Assembly: GCA_001512665.1 (NCBI GenBank)
Contig: LFSF01000027.1
Coordinates: forward strand, 1-33,235
Source: Clostridiales bacterium DTU073
GTDB taxonomy: Bacteria; Bacillota; Peptococcia; DRI-13; DTU073
Direction: 5' to 3'
DNA: 33,235 nucleotides
Shown here: positions 74 through 19,243 of the stretch, piece after piece
Position numbering within the stretch: position 1 is the stretch's first letter
Layout: the number at the start of each line of letters is the position of its first letter
Position numbers and translations under genes: made by a program
Notes under the pieces: model-generated
Told to the model about the DNA's origin: nothing
The model's database searches: none
What the model saw: the letters and a program-made list of their open reading frames with translations, nothing else

Positions 74-1144
74 TCAAAGGGCATCGCCTTTAGATAATGA
101 TATGGTTCGACCAATACTGCGGACGAATTTTTCTACTTCTTGGCGCTCTTGGGCTAAATTTTTTTCTTCTGTAAAGGGATGAGGATAGATATCGTAAAGC
201 TTACGGTATTTGAGAGGCTCTACTTTTCGCATAATTACATTAGCTCCGGTATTAAAAGCATTGGTATTTGTAGCCACTTCTAGGGCTGTTGTTGTAGGAA
301 GATGGGCACGTTTTAAGATAATTCTGGCTAGAGCGACTGCTTTTAAGGTTAAAAGGCTACTGTTAGTAGTTGTAGAAGTAGAAGTAGTTTTACCGAGTGG
401 GGTATGAGGATGGGGAATAAAGGGTCCAATCCCTGCCATATCAACATCTAGTTTTTTCAAAAGCAGAAGGTCTTGGGCGATAGTTTCCAGAGATTGTCCC
501 GGAAGTCCAATTATAAAGCCGCTTCCTGTTTGGTAACCTAAGCTTTTTAGCCAGTGAAGACATTCCAGCCTTTTTTCCAAGTGTGAGTGCGGATGAAGTT
601 GTTGAAACAGATTGTTGTCAGCCGTTTCGTGTTTAAGCAGATACCTGTCCGCACCATCTTTTTTCCACTGAGCGTATTCCTGATATTCTCTTTCCCCAAT
701 ACTTAAGGTAATGGCAATATCGCCCAACTGTTTAATTTTCTTCACAATATAAGAAATTATATCCTTAGTATAGTAGGGGTCTTCACCTGATTGCAGAACT
801 ATGGTTTTATAACCTATTTGATAAGCCTTTTTGGCTGTGGAGACGATTTCATCAGGCTCCATTCTATAACGAGGCAATATTTTATTTTGCCTTTGTATCC
901 CGCAATATAGACAGTCACAGCGGCAATAGTTGGAGAATTCGATAATTCCTCTTATATGAACCTCATCTCCGCAATATTTTTTTCTGATTTCATCTGCTTT
1001 TTGCCAAAGGTAACGGTTTTCGTGTTCAACACAAGCTAAAACTTGGAGAAGTTGGGCGCAGTTTGGCTTGTTTGCTGTGGCAATTTGCTCAAGCAGGGAA
1101 ATTATTTTAGTTTGCATTAGCAATGACCTCTTTACATGATTCAT
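74..1144 (-). CDS. hydE: [FeFe] hydrogenase H-cluster radical SAM maturase HydE
   Basis: Radical SAM CxxxCxxC (CRCDCLYCGIQ), HydE-like motifs LQSGEDPYYT and GFIIGLPGQSLETIAQDL. Confidence 0.9.
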   Translation of the reverse strand: MNHVKRSLLMQTKIISLLEQIATANKPNCAQLLQVLACVEHENRYLWQKADEIRKKYCGDEVHIRGIIEFSNYCRCDCLYCGIQRQNKILPRYRMEPDEIVSTAKKAYQIGYKTIVLQSGEDPYYTKDIISYIVKKIKQLGDIAITLSIGEREYQEYAQWKKDGADRYLLKHETADNNLFQQLHPHSHLEKRLECLHWLKSLGYQTGSGFIIGLPGQSLETIAQDLLLLKKLDVDMAGIGPFIPHPHTPLGKTTSTSTTTNSSLLTLKAVALARIILKRAHLPTTTALEVATNTNAFNTGANVIMRKVEPLKYRKLYDIYPHPFTEEKNLAQERQEVEKFVRSIGRTISLSKGDAL

Positions 1145-3450: not shown

Positions 3451-3511
3451 ACAAGTGAAAAACAATATTAACCATGTTAATATACATAGAGATTTTTGTG
3501 GGGTGTATCTA

Positions 3512-4150
3512 TTGAAAAAAAGTGAAAAGGAAAATGTTTTCCTAGATTTACGAAACAAAATAATGAACTTGACATATAAACCAGGTACGATGTTGAGCGA
3601 AATTAATTTGGCTTCGGAGTATAATGTCAGTCGATCAATAATTAGGGATGTTCTTAGAGAAATAAAAGATTACGGATTTATCGAAACGATACCTAGAGGC
3701 GGAACGTATATCACGGAAATTGCAATGAAGGATTTTAGGGATATCTTCGAAGTAAAGTCAGAATTAGAAGGTTTAGCGGCTGAGTTAGTTGTAGAACGGA
3801 TAACCTTAGAACAAAAAAATGCATTTAAAAAGTTAGTGGATAAAATTCAAAACGGAAATAGTTTTAAAATGTCTCAGGAAGATTACATTGAATATGATGA
3901 GAAGTTTCATCAGCTCATGCGTGATGCCAGCGGCAATAAGGAATTAGCTCGTCTTTTGGAGAATTATCATATCCGCTGCACAAGATTGTGGTATTATATT
4001 TCTACTGATATTCCTGATGATACCTTTAAAGAAGACTATATTAATTTTTATGAACAAGGTGTAGTTCCTCAGAATACGGTAAGGGCAAAAGAGATCATGC
4101 GTGGTCATACTGCTAAATTTGTAAATTTAATAAAAATTAAGATTTTCTAA
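3512..4150 (+). CDS. GntR-family transcriptional regulator with FCD domain
   Basis: wHTH (LASEYNVSRSIIRDVLREIKDYGFIETIPRGGTYI) plus FCD domain. The ORF-track start 3455 lies at the predicted TSS, so TTG 3512 is preferred. Confidence 0.85.
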   Translation: MKKSEKENVFLDLRNKIMNLTYKPGTMLSEINLASEYNVSRSIIRDVLREIKDYGFIETIPRGGTYITEIAMKDFRDIFEVKSELEGLAAELVVERITLEQKNAFKKLVDKIQNGNSFKMSQEDYIEYDEKFHQLMRDASGNKELARLLENYHIRCTRLWYYISTDIPDDTFKEDYINFYEQGVVPQNTVRAKEIMRGHTAKFVNLIKIKIF

Positions 4151-4459: not shown

Positions 4460-4603
4460 TTATTACGTTTATTAAGGAGGTGATTTATAAAAGATAACAG
4501 TTTAAGACATCTTAAGACATCGTAGAAATTTATAAGTAGAAGTAAAGGTGTAATGCAAGTCCGTATTCATTAATCAAAAAAGAGATTAATTGGAGGGAAT
4601 AGG

Positions 4604-5635
4604 ATGAGAAAGAGAAGTAAATTAATAAGTATTTTCTTAATTGCCATAATGTCTTTGACCTTAATCGCCGGTTGTGGAGGCGGAGGCGGTGGCGAAGCTG
4701 AAGATAAAGTTACTATTCGTGTAGCTGCTCAAGACCCCGAAGGTCATCCTAATATTGATGCCTTGAATGAAATCAAAGCCAAGGTCGAAGAAGAAACTAA
4801 TGGCCGTATTGAAATGAAGATCTATCCTGCTAACCAGTTAGGGGATTATTCACAGGTTTATGAAGAAGTTATGAAGGGTTCCATTGAAATGGCTCTAATT
4901 ACTATTCCTACTCAATATGATGCTAGATTTGAAATGATGGCTATGCCCTACTTGGCTACAAACTATGACCAAGCTAAGAAAACTTTCCTGCCGGATTCAG
5001 TTTTCGGACAAGAGTGGGGTAAATTTCATGAAGGTTTAGGAGTTAAATTCTTAGGCTTCTCCATGACCGGAGGAGTTGGAATTACTACGACGAAACCATT
5101 AAAAAATGTGGAGGAACCTCTTAAAGATAAAGGCGTCATGATTAGAATCCCGCAAATGGAAATTTGGAAACATACTATGGCGGATATGGGCTTTAGAAAC
5201 GTGGGTATTCCTTACGCTGAATTATACACCTCTTTACAAACCGGTATTGTTGATGGAAGTATTGGTACTTCTCCATTAGACACATATTCAACAGTTAGAG
5301 ACGTAGTTAAATATTATTATCTCTATAATGTTTTCTATGACAACATGTCCTATATTATGAACAAAGATCTTTTCGATTCTTTGAAGCCTGAAGAACAGCA
5401 ATTATTTGTTGACCTCTGTAGGGAATATAACATTAAGAGTATTGAAAGAGCCGAAGCTACTGATGAAGAATATCTAAAGAAGCTTCATGATGAAAAAGGC
5501 GTTGAGATCGTTGAAATACCACAAGAAGCTTTGGATGCTTTCGCTAAGCAAATTCGTGAAAACACTTGGAACAAAATGGAAGAACGTTTAACTTCTGATT
5601 TGCTGAACAAGTTAAAAGCTTCCGTAGGTTTGTAA
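4604..5635 (+). CDS. dctP: TRAP transporter substrate-binding lipoprotein, DctP family
   Basis: Lipobox LIAGC; DctP motifs NQLGDYSQVYEEVMKGSIEMAL, KGVMIRIPQ, conserved LQTGIVDGSIG. Confidence 0.93.
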   Translation: MRKRSKLISIFLIAIMSLTLIAGCGGGGGGEAEDKVTIRVAAQDPEGHPNIDALNEIKAKVEEETNGRIEMKIYPANQLGDYSQVYEEVMKGSIEMALITIPTQYDARFEMMAMPYLATNYDQAKKTFLPDSVFGQEWGKFHEGLGVKFLGFSMTGGVGITTTKPLKNVEEPLKDKGVMIRIPQMEIWKHTMADMGFRNVGIPYAELYTSLQTGIVDGSIGTSPLDTYSTVRDVVKYYYLYNVFYDNMSYIMNKDLFDSLKPEEQQLFVDLCREYNIKSIERAEATDEEYLKKLHDEKGVEIVEIPQEALDAFAKQIRENTWNKMEERLTSDLLNKLKASVGL

Positions 5636-5680
5636 TAATGATGTCATTACTTGATTAAATAGTAAATGATCAGTCTAAGA

Positions 5681-5714
5681 GTAGAAGATGTATCACTTTT
5701 TGTACATCTTCTAC
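5681..5714 (+). other. Intercistronic hairpin between dctP and dctQ
   Basis: GTAGAAGATGTA/TACATCTTCTAC perfect 12-bp stem. Confidence 0.65.
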
Positions 5715-5749
5715 CTTTGACTTAATCCATTGGAAAAGGAGGGAATAAA

Positions 5750-6295
5750 ATGGGAGAAACAGCTAATAAAATACACATTATTAATAGAGATGGCGTTTTT
5801 TGGAAGGGCTTGCTGCTGTTTCAAAGGGTGATTATGGCAATTACCAGTATTATGGTTGTCGGGCTTATATCTTATGGAGCTGCTATCCGCTATATCTTTG
5901 AGAAGGATTTTTATGGTGTAGAGGATATAGTTTTATTGGTTGCTTTCTGGATGTATTTTATTGGAGGTTCGTACGGTAGCTTTAGAAAAACTCACATTAG
6001 TGCTGAGGTTATCCCTAATTATATTAGGAATAAGAAAGCTAAAAGTTTTGTCAGACTTGTTGTTTCAGTTTGTACAACCCTCTTATGCTTTGCTCTTACT
6101 TTTTGGGGCTTTTTATTAATTTTGTGGAATCTTGAATTAATGCCTACTACTCCGGCATTAGGGATACCTGTTGTCTGTTCACAAGGGGCTATTTTTTTAG
6201 GTCTTTTGCTTATGAGTTTTTACACCGCCGTTTATACCATTGAAGATTTCCGATCATATAAATTGACCGGTGAGCTGTTTTCTTTCGAAGATTAA
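5750..6295 (+). CDS. dctQ: TRAP transporter small permease, DctQ family
   Basis: Four-TM protein between DctP and DctM genes; DctQ-like FWMYFIGGSYGSFRKTHISAEV. Confidence 0.9.
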   Translation: MGETANKIHIINRDGVFWKGLLLFQRVIMAITSIMVVGLISYGAAIRYIFEKDFYGVEDIVLLVAFWMYFIGGSYGSFRKTHISAEVIPNYIRNKKAKSFVRLVVSVCTTLLCFALTFWGFLLILWNLELMPTTPALGIPVVCSQGAIFLGLLLMSFYTAVYTIEDFRSYKLTGELFSFED

Positions 6296-6312
6296 AATTA
6301 TGAATTGAGGAG

Positions 6313-7620
6313 GTGAATGCGGTGTTAGTTGGTATAGCACTAGGTATTTTAATTGTATGTTTGTTATTTGGTATTCCGGTAGCTTTTTCTTTCATGGCTG
6401 CCACAATCTTTATGGTTTTTATGCAAGGATATGACCCCACATTTTTATTGCCGTATGGCTATAGTAAGCTTAATTCGATGACTTTGTTGGCTATTCCCTT
6501 GTTTATTGTTACCGGTAATTTAATGAACAATGGTAATATCGGGGACAAACTGGTTGATTTTGTTGATGCCTTTGTAGGTAGGATCAAAGGTGGACTGGCT
6601 GTTGTCACAACAGTTACTTGTGCAATCTTTGGCTCAATAACCGGGAGTGCTTTTGCAACTGCATCCTGTATTGGTTCTATTATGAAGCCTAAGCTTCTAG
6701 AGGGAGGATATTCCAGGGGGTTTATTGGTGCCCTTTTAGCTAATTCCTCGATTCTGGGTCTATTGATTCCACCCAGTGGAATAATGATTATATACGCCTG
6801 GTTAGGTAGACAGTCTGTTTTAGCTACTTTTTTGGCGATTGTGGCTCCGGGTATTTTAATGACGATTCTCTTGTCGTTAGTCAGTCTCTTCTTATTAAGA
6901 AAAGATAAAAATGTAAAGGTCATGGATAAAATGCCTTTAAATGACGTAGCAGTTATGGCTGCCAAAAGAGGGGTAAAAGCATTCCCAGCTTTACTTTTAC
7001 CGATAATTATCTTAGGCGGTATTTATGGCGGGTTTATGACTCCGACAGAGGCCGCTGCCGTAGGGTCAGTATATGCTATCCCTGTTGGTTTCCTGATTTA
7101 TAAAGGACTGAATTGGAAGAACTTTAAAGAAACTTTAATCGAATCAGCAGAAACAACCGGTGTAATAATGGTAATGTTCTTTTCGGTTATGATTCTTAGC
7201 CGTATTTATGTTATGGAAGATTTACCCGGCAAGATTATGAATATCTTAATGAGTATTTCTGATAATAAATTAGTTATTTTATTAATGCTCAATATCTTTA
7301 TGATTATCTTTGGCATGATCATGGATGATGTCAGTGCTTGTTCGCTGTGTACGCCGATTCTTCTGCCTATAGCCATGGAGATAGGTGTTGATCCGGTACA
7401 TTTTGCTGCGATCTTAGCTGTAAACTTAGGTATGGGTAATATTACACCACCGACAGCACCTTTGTTATATGTAGGAGGGAGTATGGCGGGAGCCTCGCTT
7501 GATGAAATGCTAAAGCCGGCAATGATGTTTATTCTCTTTGCCTGGATCCCGACTTTGATTGTTACAACCTATTTCCCATCTTTTGCCATGTGGCTTCCTA
7601 ATTTAGTTTTAGGTCAGTAG
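6313..7620 (+). CDS. dctM: TRAP transporter large permease, DctM family
   Basis: DctM motifs IPLFIVTGNLMNNG, GSITGSAFATASCIGSIM, NLGMGNITPPTAPLLYV. Confidence 0.95.
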   Translation: MNAVLVGIALGILIVCLLFGIPVAFSFMAATIFMVFMQGYDPTFLLPYGYSKLNSMTLLAIPLFIVTGNLMNNGNIGDKLVDFVDAFVGRIKGGLAVVTTVTCAIFGSITGSAFATASCIGSIMKPKLLEGGYSRGFIGALLANSSILGLLIPPSGIMIIYAWLGRQSVLATFLAIVAPGILMTILLSLVSLFLLRKDKNVKVMDKMPLNDVAVMAAKRGVKAFPALLLPIIILGGIYGGFMTPTEAAAVGSVYAIPVGFLIYKGLNWKNFKETLIESAETTGVIMVMFFSVMILSRIYVMEDLPGKIMNILMSISDNKLVILLMLNIFMIIFGMIMDDVSACSLCTPILLPIAMEIGVDPVHFAAILAVNLGMGNITPPTAPLLYVGGSMAGASLDEMLKPAMMFILFAWIPTLIVTTYFPSFAMWLPNLVLGQ

Positions 7621-7688
7621 TAGAATAAATATAGTTAATAAAGAGTAAATAACATGTAAAAAATTACAACAAAATTACTGTAAGTCTC

Positions 7689-7717
7689 TTGACATACAAG
7701 TGAATGAGCAGTAAAAT
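7689..7717 (+). promoter_or_regulatory. Sigma-A-type promoter P2, near copy of P1
   Basis: TTGACA (7689-7694), 17-nt spacer, TAAAAT (7712-7717). Confidence 0.75.
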
Positions 7718-7853
7718 ACAAGTAACAATAGAATAGGAAAGGAAGATAAGTACTAAGAAAATCTATAAAAATATTTACCTCCCTCTAAGTAAGAAATAAA
7801 TATTATTAATATAAATATAGGTTGATTAGTACTTTATCTTTATTAGACAGTGA

Positions 7854-7886
7854 TTTTTTAAGCAGATAGTGGTTGTGCTTAAAAAA
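7854..7886. other. A/T-rich hairpin in long leader
   Basis: TTTTTTAAGCA/TGCTTAAAAAA perfect 11-bp stem. Confidence 0.5.
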
Positions 7887-7940
7887 ATAAAAACCAGAGA
7901 TAAATATCCCTGCTTTTTATCTAAACGATAACTAAATTTC

Positions 7941-8005
7941 GGCACTTCTTATAATTCGCCGCCAAGCTAAAAGTTATAAGAAGCGCCGCCCGGGCGATAT
8001 TGCCC
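7941..8005 (+). ncRNA. Structured leader element copy 2
   Basis: GGCACTTCTTATAA/TTATAAGAAGCGCC (one A.C mismatch) around TTCGCCGCCAAGCTAAAAG; followed by CCCGGGCGATATTGCCC. Confidence 0.65.
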
Positions 8006-8166
8006 TATTATTTATTATACCTATTATGTATTTTACTGTCAATAGATGAAAGGGGGAATCGGGCTTAAAGCGGGTTACAGTAAAAGGTTATTGAAAAGAG
8101 TCGTTTTTGTAAAAGAGGATGTAAAAACGCTAGGTAAACAAAAAAATTAAATTAGGAGGGTGTTTT

Positions 8167-9195
8167 ATGGATAAGTTAGAGTATCGTGAATGGATTAATT
8201 CAAAATTAAACATTGGTAAAGAGATTTTATATCTTACTATGGATGAATGTATTAACTCTGGTGTAACAGTTGAAGAAGTTATCGATTATACAGAGCTAGC
8301 TTTAATTGCACATGGAAAAAAAGAACTTGATATGCCGGCTAAGATAGGTCTTCATCCGTACAAAGATACCTTCATGCATGCTATGCCTTGCTATATTCCC
8401 AGTGTAAATTCGATGGGAATTAAATGGGGTGGCTGCTGGCCTACAAACAGAGAACGTTATGGCTTAACTCAGTTATCCGGTTTGTACGTTCTCAATGACC
8501 CTGAATCCGGTTGGCCTTTGGCAATTATGGACTGCATCTGGTTGACTGCTCAGAGAACCCCGGCTGTAACTGCTGTAGCAGCAAAATACATGGCCTTCCC
8601 GGAAAAAGTAGAAACCTTCGGGATGATCGGATGTGGCGCACAAGGTTATCAGCATATTAGATATATGCCCAAGACCTTACCTAATTTAAAGAAGATTTAT
8701 ATTTATGATTTGTTTGAACCCGCTATGGATCGTGTTGTTAATGAATTACAGGCTTCTACCGCAGCTCAGATTGTAAAATGTAAGTCGATCGAAGAATTGG
8801 TAAAGAGCAGTGAAGTATTTGCTACAGCAACAGTTATTACTTCTAAACCTGAACCTAAAATTAAAGATGAATGGGTTTCTAAGGGACAAACAATCCTGAT
8901 GTGTGACTGCCATTCCTTATTTGAAGATAAAACTATGAAACGTGCGGACAAATATTATGTTGATAGTATTGACCAACATACTCTTTTAACTGAATATGGC
9001 TATTATCCGGATGGTTTGCCGGAGATCGTTGCTGAAACCGGTGAAGTTGTGGCCGGATTAGCTAAAGGTAGAGATAACGATGAACAACTAATTGTTGATA
9101 ATAATGTTGGTTTAGCAGCAGAAGACGTACCGGTAGCTAAAGCTATCTTTGATAAAGCTCTGGAAAGAGGGATGGGAAGAAAGCTTCCTCTATAA
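8167..9195 (+). CDS. Ornithine cyclodeaminase/mu-crystallin family protein
   Basis: GIKWGG, DPESGWPLAIMDCIWLTAQRTPAVTAVAAKYMA, Rossmann GMIGCGAQGYQH. Confidence 0.88.
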   Translation: MDKLEYREWINSKLNIGKEILYLTMDECINSGVTVEEVIDYTELALIAHGKKELDMPAKIGLHPYKDTFMHAMPCYIPSVNSMGIKWGGCWPTNRERYGLTQLSGLYVLNDPESGWPLAIMDCIWLTAQRTPAVTAVAAKYMAFPEKVETFGMIGCGAQGYQHIRYMPKTLPNLKKIYIYDLFEPAMDRVVNELQASTAAQIVKCKSIEELVKSSEVFATATVITSKPEPKIKDEWVSKGQTILMCDCHSLFEDKTMKRADKYYVDSIDQHTLLTEYGYYPDGLPEIVAETGEVVAGLAKGRDNDEQLIVDNNVGLAAEDVPVAKAIFDKALERGMGRKLPL

Positions 9196-9256
9196 TATCA
9201 ATAAATATTTAATGAGAGAGCTTTTTACGATTGTACTTTGAACTATTTTGCGGTTG

Positions 9257-9303
9257 GTTTCGTAAAAAAAAGGGGAGCTTTTCCCCCTTTTTTTTACCGA
9301 AAC
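9257..9303 (+). terminator. Rho-independent terminator (possibly bidirectional)
   Basis: GTTTCGTAAAAAAAAGGGG-AGCTTTT-CCCCCTTTTTTTTACCGAAAC. Confidence 0.8.
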
Positions 9304-9370
9304 GCTTATACCCCATTTTATTCCTTATGGCAACATTGATTAGAAAATATAAAAAAAAGGGGTGGGATAT

Positions 9371-9577
9371 TTGATACAACTGGACATTGAAAGATGTAAA
9401 GGTTGTGAATTATGCACTATGGCTTGTCCAGTGAACATCTTGGTCTTAAGTCAAGAACAGGCAAATTCTAAAGGAAATGCAATAATTGAGGTAACAGAAC
9501 CGGAAAAATGTACTTCCTGTGCTAGGTGTGCACAAATTTGCCCGGATACTGCCATAACAGTATATAGAAACAAATAA
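9371..9577 (+). CDS. 2-oxoacid:ferredoxin oxidoreductase delta subunit (2x[4Fe-4S] ferredoxin)
   Basis: CKGCELCTMACP and CTSCARCAQICP; first gene of the delta-alpha-beta-gamma set; TTG 9371 preferred over GTG 9362. Confidence 0.88.
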   Translation: MIQLDIERCKGCELCTMACPVNILVLSQEQANSKGNAIIEVTEPEKCTSCARCAQICPDTAITVYRNK

Positions 9578-9598
9578 TAGAACTCGTAATAGGAGGAA

Positions 9599-10675
9599 AT
9601 GATGATGGAGAAAGTTCTGATGAAAGGAACTGAGGCTATCGGCGAAGCCGCCATTAGAGCAGGATGTAGAATCTATTGTGGCTATCCGATTACTCCCCAG
9701 AGTGAATTGTTGGCCTATTTAGCTAAAAAAATGCCACATATAGAAGGTGCATCTTTTTTACAATCCGAAAGTGAAGTTGCTGCAATTAATATGATCTATG
9801 GAGCAGCCGGAGCTGGAGCAAGGGCAATGACTTCTTCGTCCAGTCCCGGGGTTAGTCTAAAACAGGAAGGTATTTCCTATATAGCCGGTGCGGAACTGCC
9901 TTGTGTAATTGTTAATGCTTCTCGTGGAGGCCCAGGGTTGGGTAGTATTCAGCCGGCTCAATCCGACTATTTTCAAGCTACTAAGGGTGGCGGACATGGG
10001 GATTATCGTTTGATAGTTTTAGCACCTAAGTCTGTTCAGGAAATGTATGATTATACTTTTGACGCCTTTGACTTAGCTGATAAATATCGTACTCCGGTCA
10101 TGCTTATGTGTGACGGAGCTTTAAGCCAATTGATGGAACCTGTGGTTTTAAAGGATATTGAAGTTAAAAAATATGAGAAACCATGGGCTACTACCGGAGC
10201 CAAAGGAAGGAAGCCCGTGCTGGTGTCTTCTTTACGGATCGATCCAGCTGATATGGAAAAACAAAATGACCATCTCTTTGAAAAATACGAGAAAATTATC
10301 GCTAATGAAGCTCGTTATGAGTCAACTTGTAATGCTGATACAGAGTATGTAGTAGTAGCATATGGGATTATGGCTCGTATTGCTCAAACGGCAATCAAAA
10401 AGTTGCGTCAGGAAGGAATTGAGGTTGGTTTAATCAGACCGATTACCTTATGGCCGTTCCCAGTGCAGGCGTTTGATGGATTAAGAGATCAGGCCAAATT
10501 ATTTATCTCGTTAGAATTAAACAAAGGACAAATGGTTGAAGATGTCAGACTCGCTGTAAATGGTAAAGCACCGGTAGAATTTTATGGTAGAAGCGGGGGC
10601 ATGATGCCTAAACCTGATGAAATTGTAGAGGTAATAAAAAGAAAGATAAGCGGGGTGGAAAAATGCAACAAGTAA
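9599..10675 (+). CDS. 2-oxoacid:ferredoxin oxidoreductase alpha subunit (VorB/KorA-like)
   Basis: [42 protein letters not shown]. Confidence 0.92.
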
Positions 10676-11403
10676 TTTTTAAGAGACCAGAGATTTTGAC
10701 GGATGCATTTACGCATTATTGCCCCGGTTGTGGACATGGAACCATTCATAGATTAGTAGCCAATGCCATTGATGATTTACAAATTCGTGAAAAGGTTATT
10801 GGTGCTGGTCCTGTTGGCTGTTCGGCGATGATTTATGATTATCTCGATGTAGATTTTCAACAATCTGCACATGGTCGGGCACCTGCTGTAGCTACAGGAA
10901 TTAAAAGAGTCTCACCGGAAAATATTGTTTTTACGTATCAGGGCGATGGTGATTTAGCTTCAATTGGAACAGCGGAAGTAATTCATGCTGCTGCTAGAGG
11001 CGAGAACATTACAGTTATTTTTGTTAATAATGCTATCTTTGGGATGACCGGTGGTCAGATGGCACCTACCACCTTATTAGGACAAAAAACCCAGACGTCT
11101 CCGGAAGGCAGAGATTTAACCACTCAGGGATATCCTTTACGGGTGTGTGAACTTTTGAATACTTTAGATGGAGTTGCTTATTTGGCTAGAGTATCTGTGC
11201 ACGATGTCAGGAATGTCTTACAAGCCAAAAAGGCGATAAAAAGAGCATTTGAAACACAGATTGAGAAGAAAGGCTTTTCGTTAGTAGAGGTGTTATCTAT
11301 CTGCCCGACAAACTGGGGAATGAAACCTAAACAAGCTATTCAATGGCTCGAGGAAAATATGACGGCATATTATCCATTACAAGTGTTCAAGGACTGGAGG
11401 TGA
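10663..11403 (+). CDS. 2-oxoacid:ferredoxin oxidoreductase beta subunit (TPP-binding)
   Basis: [19 protein letters not shown] motif [12 protein letters not shown]...[12 protein letters not shown]. Confidence 0.93.
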
Positions 11404-11407
11404 GAAA

Positions 11408-11953
11408 ATGCATCATGAGTTAATGATTTGTGGAACTGGGGGACAAGGTGTTCTGTTAATTGGTCATTTACTGGCTCATGCTGCCATGCTGGAAAATAAG
11501 TATGTTACTTGGTTACCTTATTATGGACCGGAAAAAAGAGGCGGAGAAGTAAATTGTTCCATAGTTGTGTCTGATGAAGAAGTCGGTTCTCCGATTATTA
11601 CGGCTCCTAATGAAATGATCGCCATGGATTTATCTAAAGGCAAGGTCGAAGAGTTGGCCAGTCCCAATGCCTGTTTCTTTTATAATGAATCAATGAAAAA
11701 CAGAGAATTTACCAGAAATGATCTAGAATTCATCCCGATTGATGCCAATGCAGCTGCTAAAAAAATAGGGAACATCAAGGTGGCCAATTTAGTGATTTTA
11801 GGTGCATTTATCGCTAAAACGGAGATTGTTTATTTGGATTCTGTTATTGCTGCTATGGAGGAAATGTTTAAAGGCAAGAGTGATAAGGTTCTAAATATGA
11901 ATAAAGAGGCTCTTTTGATGGGGCGGGAACTAATGCTTTCACCAAAGGCTTAG
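11408..11953 (+). CDS. 2-oxoacid:ferredoxin oxidoreductase gamma subunit
   Basis: GTGGQGVLLIGHLLA, YGPEKRGGEVNCSIVVSDEEVGSP. Confidence 0.92.
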   Translation: MHHELMICGTGGQGVLLIGHLLAHAAMLENKYVTWLPYYGPEKRGGEVNCSIVVSDEEVGSPIITAPNEMIAMDLSKGKVEELASPNACFFYNESMKNREFTRNDLEFIPIDANAAAKKIGNIKVANLVILGAFIAKTEIVYLDSVIAAMEEMFKGKSDKVLNMNKEALLMGRELMLSPKA

Positions 11954-12002
11954 TAAAAGAACAAAGATAATACAGCAAAATAAAAATCAAGGAGGCGAAG
12001 TA

Positions 12003-13457
12003 ATGAAGACCAGAAATGATTATTTAAGTTCACTTACAGCAATGAAACCAAACATGTATAAGTTTGGAGAACAGATTACCAATGTTGTTACACACCCGGC
12101 AACCAAGCGTACAGTAGAAAGTCACGCTCGTGCTTTTGACGCAGCTAATAATCCGGAATTAGAAGAATTATTTACGACTACTTCATATCTAAGCGGAAAA
12201 AAGATTATGAGATTTAATAGTTTAATGAAGTCTCCTGAAGATCTTTTGAATAATGCTAAGCTAAAAAGAGAGATGTACCGCATGACAGGTACATGTGCAG
12301 GTGGAGTATGTGTTGGTTGGAACGCTATGAACGTAATGTGGGCAGTTACCCACGAAATAGATGCTGAATATGGTACCGATTATCAAGAACGTTTGAAAAA
12401 TTGGATCTTGAAAGCAGAGGAAGAAAGTTTACTTGTTGCTGCAGCTTTAACTGATGCTAAAGGTGACCGCAGTAAAAAACCTAGCCAACAGGATTGTCGC
12501 AATGCCAATGTTCATATTGTAGAAAAGAGAGAAGACGGTATTGTAATCAGCGGGGCAAAAGTGATGATCTGTGGTGTAGCTGCTTCTAATGAAATCTTCT
12601 TGTTGCCCGGTGGCGGATACAAAGAAGATGATGCAGATTTTGCAGTAGCTTGTGTTGTACCCAGAGATATTGAAGGCCTAACGATTGTAGAAACACGTAG
12701 ACCCAGTGATGGCAGAGAATATGAAGAAGGTTTTGATATTCTTGATACCGGGATTACTCAGGCTTATCTGCTCTTTGATAAGGTCTTTGTACCAAAAGAG
12801 AGAGTGTTTATGGCCGGTGAATATAAGTATACCGGTAAAGTTGTTCAATATTTCACTGCCAATTATCGTGCTTGTATCGGCGCATGTGTAGCCGGACAGG
12901 GAGATGTGATGATTGGTGCTGCTGCCTTGATGGCTCGTGCTAATGGTCTTTCTATGAAAAAGTTTAAAGATAAATTTATTGATATGTCTATCAATAACGA
13001 AGTTACTTATGGTGTTGGTATTTCCGCTATGACTTTAGGTAAAGCTCATCCTTCCGGCGTTTGGATTAGCGATGATTTGATGGCTCATACCAATAAAACA
13101 CTCGTCGGAAAACTTCCTTATGAGACGAAACGGATATGTCAAGACATTGGCGGCGGTGTAGTAGAGACAGGCTGTCTGCCTTCAGCTAAGGATTTTGAAC
13201 ATCCGGTTTATGGACAGTATATACAGGATGTATTTAAAGCCGGAAATGTTTCAAGTATCGGCAGGGCTAAAACGGCTCGCTTAATCGAATGGCTTACCTT
13301 AGGTGCCGGCGTACCTGGTTGTATGCACGGTGGTGGCTCACCTGACGGGGCAAGACTAGTTATTAATGCGAAAATCCCTTATGAAAAATACATTGATTAT
13401 GCGAAGAAAATCGCAGGTGTTGACGAAGAGACGGAGGACCCAGGCGCGAAAAAGTAA
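12003..13457 (+). CDS. 4-hydroxyphenylacetate 3-hydroxylase/4-hydroxybutyryl-CoA dehydratase family protein, altered ligand set
   Basis: Full-length similarity to AbfD-type proteins (DYLSSL...YKFGE, GDRSKKPSQQ, IVEKREDGIVISGAK, GDVMIGAAALM, C-terminal MHGGGSPDGARLVI); C98/C103 and C291/C295. Confidence 0.85.
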   Translation: MKTRNDYLSSLTAMKPNMYKFGEQITNVVTHPATKRTVESHARAFDAANNPELEELFTTTSYLSGKKIMRFNSLMKSPEDLLNNAKLKREMYRMTGTCAGGVCVGWNAMNVMWAVTHEIDAEYGTDYQERLKNWILKAEEESLLVAAALTDAKGDRSKKPSQQDCRNANVHIVEKREDGIVISGAKVMICGVAASNEIFLLPGGGYKEDDADFAVACVVPRDIEGLTIVETRRPSDGREYEEGFDILDTGITQAYLLFDKVFVPKERVFMAGEYKYTGKVVQYFTANYRACIGACVAGQGDVMIGAAALMARANGLSMKKFKDKFIDMSINNEVTYGVGISAMTLGKAHPSGVWISDDLMAHTNKTLVGKLPYETKRICQDIGGGVVETGCLPSAKDFEHPVYGQYIQDVFKAGNVSSIGRAKTARLIEWLTLGAGVPGCMHGGGSPDGARLVINAKIPYEKYIDYAKKIAGVDEETEDPGAKK

Positions 13458-13581: not shown

Positions 13582-14730
13582 ATGAATTTTAATTTCACGG
13601 ATGAACAAGAAATGCTAAGAAAAGCGGTACGCGAATTTGTGGAAGCAGAAATTGCTCCAAAGGCAGCAGAGTGGGATGAAAAAGATGAATGTCCGGTAGA
13701 ATTATTCCCGAAAATGGGTCAGATGGGTATCACCGGGATCTTTGTTCCCGAGGAATATGGTGGAGCCGGTTTAGGCCATGTGGAAAGAGCTATTTGCTTA
13801 GAAGAGATTTCCCGCCATTCTGCAGGACTAGGTATTGCTCTGATGACTCACCATTTAGGTACAGACCCAATTTTAAAATTTGGTACACCGGAACAAAAAG
13901 AAAAGTATCTGCCTGATATTGCTTCCGGGAAAAAGATTGCCGGACTTTCCGTTACAGAGCCCGGTGGCGGCTCAGATTTTATGGGTCAAAAAGCTACCGG
14001 AGAATTAAAGGATGGTAAATGGGTAATTAATGGCCGGAAATGTTTCATTACTAACTCGGCTGTGGCTGATGTTGATCTTTGGATTGTTAATACCGGCACA
14101 AACGAAAAAGGACGTCCGCTTCTTTCGACCTTTATTATTGATAAAGATACTCCTGGTCATAAGCCTGGTCGGAAGGAAAACAAGCTAGGCTTGAGAGGCT
14201 CTGTTACCGGAGAAATCATTTGTACAGATGTGGAACTAGGTCCGGAACAATTATTGGGTAAAGTCGGTGATGGTGCGAAAGCCGGAATGGGCGCAATCGG
14301 AGAAGTTGGTCGTGCCGGAATGGCCGCAATTAGCGTAGGGGTTCTGGGTGCTTGTTTAGAATTAGCGGTTAAATTCGCTAACGAACGTATCCTCTACGGC
14401 AAACCAATTGCCAAATTACAAGCAATTCAATTTGATGTAGCAGAAACACGTGTAGAATATGAAGCGGCCAGATTATTGCTCTATCGTGCTGCCAGCATGA
14501 AGGATGCCGGTATCCCATGTGCTAATGAATTCTCAATTGCTAAATACTATGCTTCAGAAGCTGCTTGCCGCGCTGCTAAGAGAATCATGGATATGATGGG
14601 CGGTTATGGCGTTATTAATGAATACCCAATCGGACGTTACTTGAGAGATGCTCAAGCGATTATTCCAGCGGGTGGAACTACTCATATTCAGAAAATGATT
14701 ATCGGTGCTAATACTTTAGCGGGTAAATAA
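13582..14730 (+). CDS. Acyl-CoA dehydrogenase family protein, non-canonical active site
   Basis: GLSVTEPGGGSDF, KCFITNS, RILYGKPIAKLQAIQF, MMGGYGVINEYPIGRYLRDA; catalytic-Glu position is Gly. Confidence 0.92.
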   Translation: MNFNFTDEQEMLRKAVREFVEAEIAPKAAEWDEKDECPVELFPKMGQMGITGIFVPEEYGGAGLGHVERAICLEEISRHSAGLGIALMTHHLGTDPILKFGTPEQKEKYLPDIASGKKIAGLSVTEPGGGSDFMGQKATGELKDGKWVINGRKCFITNSAVADVDLWIVNTGTNEKGRPLLSTFIIDKDTPGHKPGRKENKLGLRGSVTGEIICTDVELGPEQLLGKVGDGAKAGMGAIGEVGRAGMAAISVGVLGACLELAVKFANERILYGKPIAKLQAIQFDVAETRVEYEAARLLLYRAASMKDAGIPCANEFSIAKYYASEAACRAAKRIMDMMGGYGVINEYPIGRYLRDAQAIIPAGGTTHIQKMIIGANTLAGK

Positions 14731-15655: not shown

Positions 15656-16666
15656 ATGGACATTGGTGCTTGGAAAGGAATTTGGGTTATTGCTGAACAA
15701 ATTGAGGGAACCATCAATTCCGTTAGTTTTGAATTACTAGGTAAGGCTAAGCAACTGAAGGAACAACTTAAAAGCTCTGAACCGGTTACTGCAGTGCTTT
15801 TGGGTAGTGACATTCAAGGTTTAGCTGATGAATTAGGTCAGTATGGTGCGGAAGAAGTCATTGTAATTGAACATGAAAAATTAGCTATTTTTGAAAATGA
15901 CACTTATGCTGCTGTGCTTAACGATTTAATCCAAGAAAGAAAGCCGGAAATTGTTTTAATGGGGGCTACAGCTATTGGGCAAGATTTAGCGCCAATGCTA
16001 GGTGGTATCTTGAAAACAGGGGTAGCAGCTCATTGTGTGGATGTTAATATTAATGAAGAAGGAAAATTTGTGGCAGTAGTACCGGCCTTTGGCGGTAAGG
16101 TGCTCGGAGATATTTTCTGCCCTGACCATAGACCACAGATGGCGACTTTAAAGCCAGGGATATTAGGAGAACCTGTTTTAGATAAAAATGCTGTTTTTAA
16201 GGTGACTGCTTATAATGCGGAAGAATCATTAAAAAAAGTTACAGGCAGAGTAAAAGCTGTAGGTATTTATAAGAATGAGATTCAAGGTATTCCTCTGGAA
16301 AAAGCTGAGGTAGTCGTTGTTGGTGGTTGGGGGATAGGCAGCAAAGAAAATTGGAGTTATATTGAGGAATTGGCGACACTCTTAGGAGGTGCAGTCGGTT
16401 GTACGCGTCCGGCTGTTGACGAAAACTGGGCTGAGGGCGAACATCAAATGATTGGTACCAGTGGAAAATCAGTGCGTCCTAAGGTTTATATCGGTGCCGC
16501 TGTCTCTGGATCTACACATCATCTTTGTGGGATGAAGGATTCAGGTTTAGTAATTAGTATAAATACTGATGAAAATGCTCCTATATTTGACTCTTCTGAT
16601 GTTTGTATAGTAGCTGATGCTGCTAAATTTTTACCCAAGCTGATTGAACGAATTAAGCAGGCTTAA
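15656..16666 (+). CDS. etfA: Electron transfer flavoprotein alpha subunit
   Basis: C-terminal FAD domain VVVGGWGIGSKENW...GTSGKSVRPKVYIGAAVSGSTHHLCGMKDSGLVISINTDENAPIF. Confidence 0.93.
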   Translation: MDIGAWKGIWVIAEQIEGTINSVSFELLGKAKQLKEQLKSSEPVTAVLLGSDIQGLADELGQYGAEEVIVIEHEKLAIFENDTYAAVLNDLIQERKPEIVLMGATAIGQDLAPMLGGILKTGVAAHCVDVNINEEGKFVAVVPAFGGKVLGDIFCPDHRPQMATLKPGILGEPVLDKNAVFKVTAYNAEESLKKVTGRVKAVGIYKNEIQGIPLEKAEVVVVGGWGIGSKENWSYIEELATLLGGAVGCTRPAVDENWAEGEHQMIGTSGKSVRPKVYIGAAVSGSTHHLCGMKDSGLVISINTDENAPIFDSSDVCIVADAAKFLPKLIERIKQA

Positions 16667-17770: not shown

Positions 17771-19243
17771 ATGGTTAATAATACTTCCAAGGTAGTAATT
17801 ATAGCTTATACTCCTGAACCGGAAAAACTTTGTGCCTCGGCAGCAGGTATTTCTACCACTAAGGGTACTGCTTTAGAGCTTTATAATCAAAAAAATGATC
17901 TCGCTAAGGCTCAAAAGTTAATTAAAAATGTTCTGAAACTGGGACATGCTACAACAATTGAACATGCGTGTTTTACTATCGCTTTTGAAAATGTCTCAGC
18001 CTTTGTGGAACAGTTTATGATTGAATTTAGGATTGCTTCTTTTACGGTAAAATCCAGACGTTATGTTGATTTTAGCCAAATGGGTTTTTATCAACCGGAA
18101 TTTAGATTTCAAGAAGAGGTTACTGAGGAGAGACGTAATTATTTTATTAATCTCTATAATACTCAAATGGAAAAGTTGTTTAGGGAATATGAACATTTGG
18201 TGGAAAAGGAGATTCCGCGTGAAGATGCTCGTTTTCTCTTACCCTATTGTTATCGGAGTAATTTTTATTGTACAGTCAATGCTCGGGAATTACAGTTAAT
18301 CATTAATACTGCACTAAAGGGTAGAGGCAGTAAGTATCCGGAGATTCGTGAAATAGGGGCATCATTACTTAAACAAGCTAAGGACATAGCTCCGGGAATA
18401 TTCGAGCATGATGTGCAAGAGTTTAAGGATAACAAAGAGGAGCAGCTACGGGAATTATTAGCAGGAGAAGCTTTTTCATCTTTATCGAAAACGGTTTTTG
18501 CGAAAAGAGAATTGGCGGAGAACCGGAATAATGAGGAAACCGGAAATAGTAAGGAAGCCTTTTGTGAACTTTTAAGTTATACAGAAAATCCGGAAAGTCT
18601 GGTGGCAAGTGCAGTACTAATTAAGCATACACTTTGTGCTACTGATACAGCGTTGAAAGTGGTGGAGGAGAATCACCTTTTAAGAGACAAGCTTTTAACA
18701 ATAGCCTGTCAAGACCAAAGGAAACGTGAGTTAGAGCAAGTTTGTTTTACCTTTAGGATTAATAATCTTACTTTAGCCGGACTTACTCATTTGGCGCGGC
18801 ATCGTATTCAATCACTTAATGTGCCGTCTTTTACGGAATTTGGCTTTAGTCAGAACTTTGTTATTCCTGCTTCGATAGCCGCAAAGCCGGAACTGTTGAC
18901 AAGATATTTGAGCATTTGGGAAGAGCAGCAAAGAATTTTTTCTGAATTTGTTACAGCGGGTGTTGTTAAAGAAGATTTGGTTTATTTATATTTAAGCGGA
19001 AATATGGTAGATGTGGTGACAACGATGAATGGGCGCGAACTCTTCCACTTTTTCCGCTTGCGGACTTGTAACAGAGCACAATGGGAAATTAGAGCAATAG
19101 CGATGGAAATGTTGGATAAATTAAAAGGGATATCACCTAGTTTGTTTAGTAAGTTTGGACCTAGCTGTTATGTTTTGGATAAATGCCCGGAAGGGAAACT
19201 TTCCTGTGGTCAAAAAGAGGAAATGAAAAAAAGGTTTTGTTAG
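17771..19243 (+). CDS. thyX: Tandem double-domain FAD-dependent thymidylate synthase (ThyX-ThyX)
   Basis: Two ThyX domains: degenerate EFRIASFTVKSRRYVDF in the N half, RHRIQSLNVPS and RTCNRAQWEIR in the C half. Confidence 0.88.
   Translation: MVNNTSKVVIIAYTPEPEKLCASAAGISTTKGTALELYNQKNDLAKAQKLIKNVLKLGHATTIEHACFTIAFENVSAFVEQFMIEFRIASFTVKSRRYVDFSQMGFYQPEFRFQEEVTEERRNYFINLYNTQMEKLFREYEHLVEKEIPREDARFLLPYCYRSNFYCTVNARELQLIINTALKGRGSKYPEIREIGASLLKQAKDIAPGIFEHDVQEFKDNKEEQLRELLAGEAFSSLSKTVFAKRELAENRNNEETGNSKEAFCELLSYTENPESLVASAVLIKHTLCATDTALKVVEENHLLRDKLLTIACQDQRKRELEQVCFTFRINNLTLAGLTHLARHRIQSLNVPSFTEFGFSQNFVIPASIAAKPELLTRYLSIWEEQQRIFSEFVTAGVVKEDLVYLYLSGNMVDVVTTMNGRELFHFFRLRTCNRAQWEIRAIAMEMLDKLKGISPSLFSKFGPSCYVLDKCPEGKLSCGQKEEMKKRFC

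Follow-up and report, generated by a model that had tools for sequence, protein, structure and literature searches.

A distinct clade of the 4-hydroxybutyryl-CoA dehydratase fold with an inserted, conserved cysteine and replaced mechanism residues

4-Hydroxybutyryl-CoA dehydratase (4HBD) is the textbook flavin/[4Fe-4S] enzyme, needing neither SAM, B12 nor ATP for its radical chemistry, and the mechanism proposed for it rests on few residues. We take the [4Fe-4S] ligands of AbfD, the C. aminobutyricum 4HBD, to be Cys99, Cys103, His292 and Cys299. Zhang et al. in 2015 are said to have proposed that Glu455 deprotonates Tyr296 and that Tyr296 reduces FAD, with Glu257 helping via Thr190; substitutions at most of these relay positions reportedly abolish or almost abolish the activity of the enzyme. 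HpaB/HadA monooxygenases (2yyg, 7e8p) share the overall fold. In HadA, Thr193 bonds flavin N5 and Asp254 bonds Thr193, while the C-terminal domain of the neighbouring subunit contacts the benzenoid ring and diphosphate of FAD (PMC8342789).

The gene studied here comes from Clostridiales bacterium DTU073 and lies in a stretch of 33,235 nucleotides, called the window below. It is an open reading frame of 484 codons from ATG without internal stop. The encoded protein has both Pfam domains of the HpaB fold, PF11794 (HpaB_N, 1.4e-77) and PF03241 (HpaB, 4.8e-39). An AF2 model made from 75 homologues had a pLDDT of 94.7 and a pTM of 0.91, and Foldseek matched it to the 4HBD structures 6vjr and 1u8v with a TM score of 0.94 and an rmsd of 1.5-1.9 Å. 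The protein is about 35-37% identical to the solved 4HBDs, with which it also shares length, Arg90 and an acyl-CoA gene context. In PDB sequence and profile searches, 1u8v and 6vjr scored far over any monooxygenase, and the structural likeness to 2yyg and 7e8p was lower (TM about 0.8).

The protein and its neighbours are encoded on one strand. The genes of the window that concern us are listed below; L021, one of our loci (numbered with L), is from Peptococcaceae bacterium UBA5356, the nearest relative, whose enzyme is 88% identical.

3455..4150, + strand: GntR-type regulator (type assigned by eye; 66% identical neighbour in L021)
4604..7620, + strand: TRAP transporter with its periplasmic binding protein (4604-5635), small subunit and large subunit (DctM PF06808; DctP homologues)
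8167..9195, + strand: NAD(P) amino-acid dehydrogenase of the ornithine cyclodeaminase/mu-crystallin family (OCD; PF02423, 1.1e-54)
9371..9577, + strand: 2x[4Fe-4S] ferredoxin-like subunit of the 2-oxoacid oxidoreductase (two CxxCxxC...CP motifs; adjoins alpha on its 5' side)
9599..10675, + strand: 2-oxoacid:ferredoxin oxidoreductase alpha, VorB/KorA type (NF005507, 542 bits, over cut-off)
10663..11403, + strand: 2-oxoacid:ferredoxin oxidoreductase beta (PF02775)
11408..11953, + strand: 2-oxoacid:ferredoxin oxidoreductase gamma (PF01558; TIGR02175 over cut-off)
12003..13457, + strand: the 484-aa acyl-CoA enzyme of HpaB/4HBD fold, member of the C391 clade (Pfam, Foldseek, tree)
13582..14730, + strand: acyl-CoA dehydrogenase (ACAD) whose subfamily lacks the customary catalytic Glu, sole ACAD in the genome
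14800..15651, + strand: EtfB (PF01012)
15656..16666, + strand: EtfA (PF01012, PF00766)

The ferredoxin-like gene encodes 68 aa from a TTG start and fell below the length cut-off of the ORF list. The nearest PDB entries to the OCD-type dehydrogenase are the archaeal alanine dehydrogenase 1omo/1vll. Elsewhere in the window, a radical SAM protein at 74-1144 (- strand) looks HydE hydrogenase maturase-like by eye, which fits an H2-forming fermentation, and a 490-aa ORF at 17771-19243 appears by eye to be a head-to-tail fusion of two ThyX-like halves.

These neighbours bear on whether the protein could be an HpaB-type (group D) flavin monooxygenase that depends on O2. HpaB models are indeed its top NCBIfam matches, but both score far under their curated cut-offs (113.6 vs 480.2 bits and 77.4 vs 885.2 bits). 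HpaB/HadA enzymes lack Fe-S cysteines and use O2, whereas the protein retains the cluster cysteines of 4HBD and sits among genes of anaerobic CoA-ester metabolism, with low-potential ferredoxin-linked and Etf enzymes beside it. None of the genes around it looked like a flavin reductase partner. We find a monooxygenase scarcely credible.

The sequence-only reading had placed the protein near AbfD with altered cluster ligands, and sequence check found all the residues it named (C98, C103, Y288, C291, I292, C295, V296) at the positions given. When 1u8v and 6vjr were aligned to the protein by MAFFT, C98 fell opposite Cys99, C103 opposite Cys103, Y288 opposite His292, C291 opposite Ser295, I292 opposite Tyr296, C295 opposite Cys299 and V296 opposite Lys300. 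Its by-eye assignments of His292 to Tyr288, Tyr296 to Ile292, Lys300 to Val296 and Cys299 to C295 were thus borne out. So was the first cysteine pair, where one inserted residue makes CAGGVC (CX4C) of the CFQRC (CX3C) of AbfD. Conservation among the homologues puts most of this pattern well outside what chance would give, C291 being the exception. The residues that distinguish the protein are as follows (clade and outside rows are defined below).

12294..12296, + strand: C98, equivalent of AbfD Cys99 (53/53 clade rows covering the position)
12309..12311, + strand: C103, equivalent of AbfD Cys103, with an extra residue in the loop (53/53 covering rows)
12570..12572, + strand: C190 for AbfD Thr190, the N5-contacting Thr of the fold (Cys 42/55, Ala 13/55; Thr or Ser outside the clade)
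12759..12761, + strand: Q253 for AbfD Glu257 (Gln 52/55 in the clade; Glu 29/31 outside)
12864..12866, + strand: Y288 for the ligand His292 (Tyr 54/56, His 1, Glu 1 in the clade; His 31/31 outside)
12873..12875, + strand: C291, candidate ligand of the sequence-only reading (Cys 39/56)
12876..12878, + strand: I292 for AbfD Tyr296 (Ile 54/56)
12885..12887, + strand: C295, equivalent of AbfD Cys299 (56/56)
12888..12890, + strand: V296 for AbfD Lys300 (Val 56/56 in the clade; Lys 30/31 outside)
13164..13175, + strand: ETGC motif E388-C391 with inserted G390-C391 (four residues each 56/56)
13320..13322, + strand: C440, adjoining the position of AbfD Glu455, which is G439 here (Cys 54/56, Thr 2/56)

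C391, C440 and C190 had escaped the earlier reading. Homologues were collected by a protein scan of GTDB genomes and by whole-genome searches (relatives, genomes of the loci, Desulfobacterota and Bacillota). The clade rows are the 56 that carry the ETGC motif, and the comparison rows are the 31 others, all with His at 288. The C391 column itself delimits the clade, so that its 56/56 holds by construction. Beyond construction, the clade is single and fully supported, the insertion is absent from the other rows, and C98, C103 and C295 are invariant inside it. In a maximum-likelihood tree of 84 rows, the 54 clade rows of adequate length shared one branch with support of 100/100. The gene is a member of this distinct clade of the 4HBD/HpaB fold, having C98-X4-C103, Y288 with C295, the ETGC motif ending in C391, the PG-C440-MHGGG motif and its place on the common branch.

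Among the GTDB genomes sampled, the C391 clade is represented in Bacillota, Desulfobacterota, Zixibacteria and MAGs that carry an archaeal label. At E <= 1e-120, matches occurred in 18 of 396 sampled genomes of the Desulfobacterota-type phylum (4-5%) and in 11 of 398 of the window's own phylum (3%). A full-text literature search found no papers on the clade; PMC13101534, on a benzene-activation cluster, cites 4HBD merely as an analogy. A second unusual HpaB-fold group (L075, L079, L121, L122, L123, L016, L066) has the motifs GTCNYRC and HRMNCGGACK, with Cys at the Tyr296 position and a His-to-Cys spacing of +8 vs +7. It forms a separate clade (support 100/99) and often stands in tandem with a C391-clade gene.

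Three of the four AbfD ligand equivalents (C99, C103, C299) are present and the His is replaced by Tyr288. Since the three cysteines are retained, the cluster is likely kept. The sequence-only reading had depended on there being no His at this ligand position, and the alignment does put Tyr288 there, as in nearly all of the clade. Its ligand set C98/C103/C291/C295 fared less well. C291 lies on the same helix between 288 and 295 and is shared with 39 of the 56 clade rows, but in the other 17, with the remaining clade features intact, the residue is Ala (10), Pro (4), Thr (2) or Tyr (1). We reject C291 as a general fourth ligand on these counts. It is a possible ligand in the 484-aa protein itself, although as an account of the cluster we consider it very unlikely.

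Only C98, C103, C295 and C391 are Cys in every covering clade row. C291 being variable and C391 always present, an all-Cys cluster would be C98/C103/C295/C391. The G390 and C391 columns are empty in all 31 His-type rows, so the two residues form an insertion (ETG-C-P). A near-reciprocal swap results, with His at 288 in 31/31 outside rows and 1/56 clade rows and C391 in 0/31 outside rows; on the tree this swap is a single event, without repeated covariation. One clade member, L004 (G007), has His at 288 alongside C391. If the cluster is kept, C391 would most economically supply its fourth ligand, with Tyr288 as the main alternative, and from the alignment the ETGC motif is the most likely source of that ligand. 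C391 might nevertheless fail to reach the cluster.

Tyr288 stands on the same helix where AbfD has its His ligand, and its sole replacements in the clade, His and Glu, are each a possible iron ligand. Tyr288 could for these reasons be the fourth ligand together with C98, C103 and C295, leaving C391 and C440 as paired thiols close to the flavin with a catalytic or redox role. Ligation of [4Fe-4S] clusters by Tyr is rare, and C391, new and always present, would then need a different strict role. We regard this arrangement as rather unlikely. The new cysteines could also serve the flavin, C391 through a covalent thioether to FAD or a redox-active disulfide with C440, while the open iron of a three-Cys cluster binds the substrate directly. 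Both cysteines are nearly always present, and the C-terminal domain of the neighbouring subunit reaches FAD in HadA. The adjacent subunit's Arg'387 and Ile'391 contact the flavin there (PMC8342789), their match to the C391 loop being approximate; hence the loop that bears C391 could have its role at the flavin of a different subunit and not at the cluster. On the other hand, C440 is Thr in 2/56 rows although C391 stays, and we saw no direct sign of covalent flavin. This makes a flavin role for the cysteines rather unlikely in our judgement.

The relay residues of 4HBD were lost as well. Across the clade, Thr190, Glu257, Tyr296 and Glu455 have become Cys or Ala, Gln, Ile and Gly, and the 484-aa protein has Cys190, Gln253, Ile292 and Gly439, with Val296 for Lys300. 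The contacts of HadA Thr193 and Asp254, at the C190 and Q253 positions, imply that at least two of the clade changes should sit at the flavin. Because the relay residues are all replaced, the C391 clade would be unable to use the published 4HBD mechanism, and the 484-aa protein, as judged from its sequence, does not act as a 4HBD in the way proposed for AbfD. His-type paralogues accompany the C391-clade gene in several genomes.

The sequence-only reading had suggested that the reaction is probably other than 4-hydroxybutyryl-CoA dehydration. The replaced relay and the paralogues agree with it, and the doubt is now stronger than it was then, since Glu257, Thr190 and Glu455 are lost too and His-type paralogues exist. 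The 4HBD fold, the identity to solved 4HBDs and the acyl-CoA context would suit an ordinary 4-hydroxybutyryl-CoA dehydratase/vinylacetyl-CoA isomerase in which the differences are neutral. The His ligand and all relay residues are, however, replaced clade-wide, single changes at most of such residues reportedly kill or nearly kill 4HBD activity, and some genomes hold both types. An ordinary 4HBD is therefore highly improbable.

The ACAD downstream of the gene is unusual in a comparable way. It has AGGT at 14668-14679 in place of the usual YEGT, and in 23 aligned copies of this operon-linked type the motif is [AS][GA]GT. The catalytic acid of isovaleryl-CoA dehydrogenase is located on helix G, and in the 23 aligned copies helix G has no conserved acid at that position; the operon-linked type thus lacks the catalytic Glu at either site. 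The Glu-less ACADs (L023-L026, L028-L032, L108, L109, L118-L120, L125-L128, L133-L135) have a one-residue insertion in helix G. YEGT is retained by ordinary ACADs in the same alignment, two of which (L107, L132) adjoin a C391-clade gene. By our own comparison, Glu455, lost in the HpaB-fold partner, is at a C-terminal position comparable to that of the ACAD Glu. The ACAD and its HpaB-fold partner may use a CoA ester needing no removal of an alpha proton, or an electrons-first route. The AcrCAB acryloyl-CoA reductase of Anaerotignum (Clostridium) propionicum is the top NCBIfam match for the ACAD and EtfA and shares the ACAD-Etf operon, but all scores are well under the curated cut-offs and the ACAD of the window is without the YEGT glutamate.

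The regulator, TRAP, OCD and 2-oxoacid oxidoreductase genes lie upstream of the C391-clade gene and ACAD, EtfB and EtfA downstream, and L021 has the same arrangement, GntR-type regulator included. The OCD and 2-oxoacid oxidoreductase neighbours, and the set they form with TRAP, were among the loci sampled found in the window and L021 only; L106 has another 2-oxoacid oxidoreductase beside its clade gene. There, at about 4566-12789, the subunits of this oxidoreductase and the clade gene are grouped with an ordinary 4HBD and with genes for a thiolase, an SDR and a carbon-nitrogen hydrolase. In 16 of the 45 loci with adequate flanks, ACAD and EtfA share the strand of the clade gene and lie no more than 6 kb from it. 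Other genes nearby were a CoA ligase or CoA-transferase (13 loci), a tungsten-type aldehyde oxidoreductase (10), an SLC23-like permease (8) and a sigma-54 activator (8), and about one third of the loci had none of these. Where the neighbours are informative, the context of the clade is acyl-CoA metabolism.

The genome of the window (96% complete) has a single ACAD and a single HpaB-family gene, and family searches of it gave no match for crotonase or thiolase. With one ACAD and no such match, the product there is probably reduced and not beta-oxidised. Excretion of the reduced product is probable, as happens when amino acids or organic acids are fermented.

Our best explanation, held with about even confidence, is that the 484-aa protein is an acyl-CoA enzyme, probably oxygen-sensitive, which binds FAD and a [4Fe-4S] cluster at C98/C103/C295/C391 and works in the acid pathway of the operon. 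The His ligand of 4HBD would have been lost and C391 of the inserted loop would have taken over as cluster ligand. An all-Cys-ligated cluster would transfer electrons and not act as a Lewis acid. In place of the Tyr296/Glu455/Glu257/Thr190 relay, the cluster or an electron from outside would generate the flavin radical, and the thiol of C440 and/or C190 would work beside the flavin as acid/base or donate hydrogen there.

We infer an order and direction for the pathway from the gene families of the operon. The TRAP transporter would import the substrate, the OCD-type dehydrogenase would oxidise it to a 2-oxo acid, and the four-subunit 2-oxoacid oxidoreductase would turn this into an acyl-CoA. 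The C391-clade enzyme would then convert the acyl-CoA by elimination, isomerisation or reductive elimination to an unsaturated acyl-CoA, and ACAD/EtfBA would reduce the latter. An analogous type of reaction is the redox-neutral C4 elimination by BbuA, gamma-butyrobetainyl-CoA:TMA lyase, which is a flavoenzyme of the ACAD superfamily, a different family whose identity to 4HBD is about 10% at most (PMC8364193). On the best reading, the operon pathway handles an acid or amino acid anaerobically.

The neighbour sets vary between loci, and for this reason no single substrate follows. Other loci have a PaaK-like ligase with an SLC23-like permease, an ADP-forming CoA ligase with an S-methyltransferase, or a CoA-transferase with an aldehyde oxidoreductase and a thiolase. 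A gene of the homocysteine S-methyltransferase family stands near the clade gene in L024, L023, L027, L028 and L031, all Desulfobacterota MAGs, one of which is an Olavius-associated bacterium. This neighbour hints at methylated sulfur or nitrogen compounds. Conceivable substrates, each faintly suggested at most, are 3-methylthiopropionyl-CoA derived from methionine or DMSP, beta-hydroxy amino acids via 2-hydroxyacyl-CoA, aromatic or heterocyclic acids, and gamma-substituted acids from ornithine or arginine.

A bolder reading, which we think unlikely, is that the clade consists of cross-phylum radical flavoenzymes in which an inserted-loop Cys has replaced the helix His, the cluster transfers electrons, a ketyl is formed reduction-first, and the enzyme is paired with the base-less ACAD. 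If true, a non-redox Lewis-acid cluster would have become an electron-transfer cluster, and reduction-first ketyl formation would replace the oxidation-first (enolate to ketyl) generation of the radical. The ACAD partner would lack the alpha-proton base, and the alpha carbon of the CoA ester would need no deprotonation.

The C391 clade is a widespread and coherent new variant within this flavin and iron-sulfur family of anaerobes, of the 4HBD type, and most likely catalyses a different reaction on CoA-linked acids. Annotation of its members as 4-hydroxybutyryl-CoA dehydratase or 4-hydroxyphenylacetate hydroxylase is unsafe. The clade is a large natural set with the 4HBD fold and three cluster cysteines in which the mechanism residues are all replaced, and this combination makes the 4HBD mechanism directly testable by comparison. 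It also points to an unassigned anaerobic pathway for acids or amino acids.
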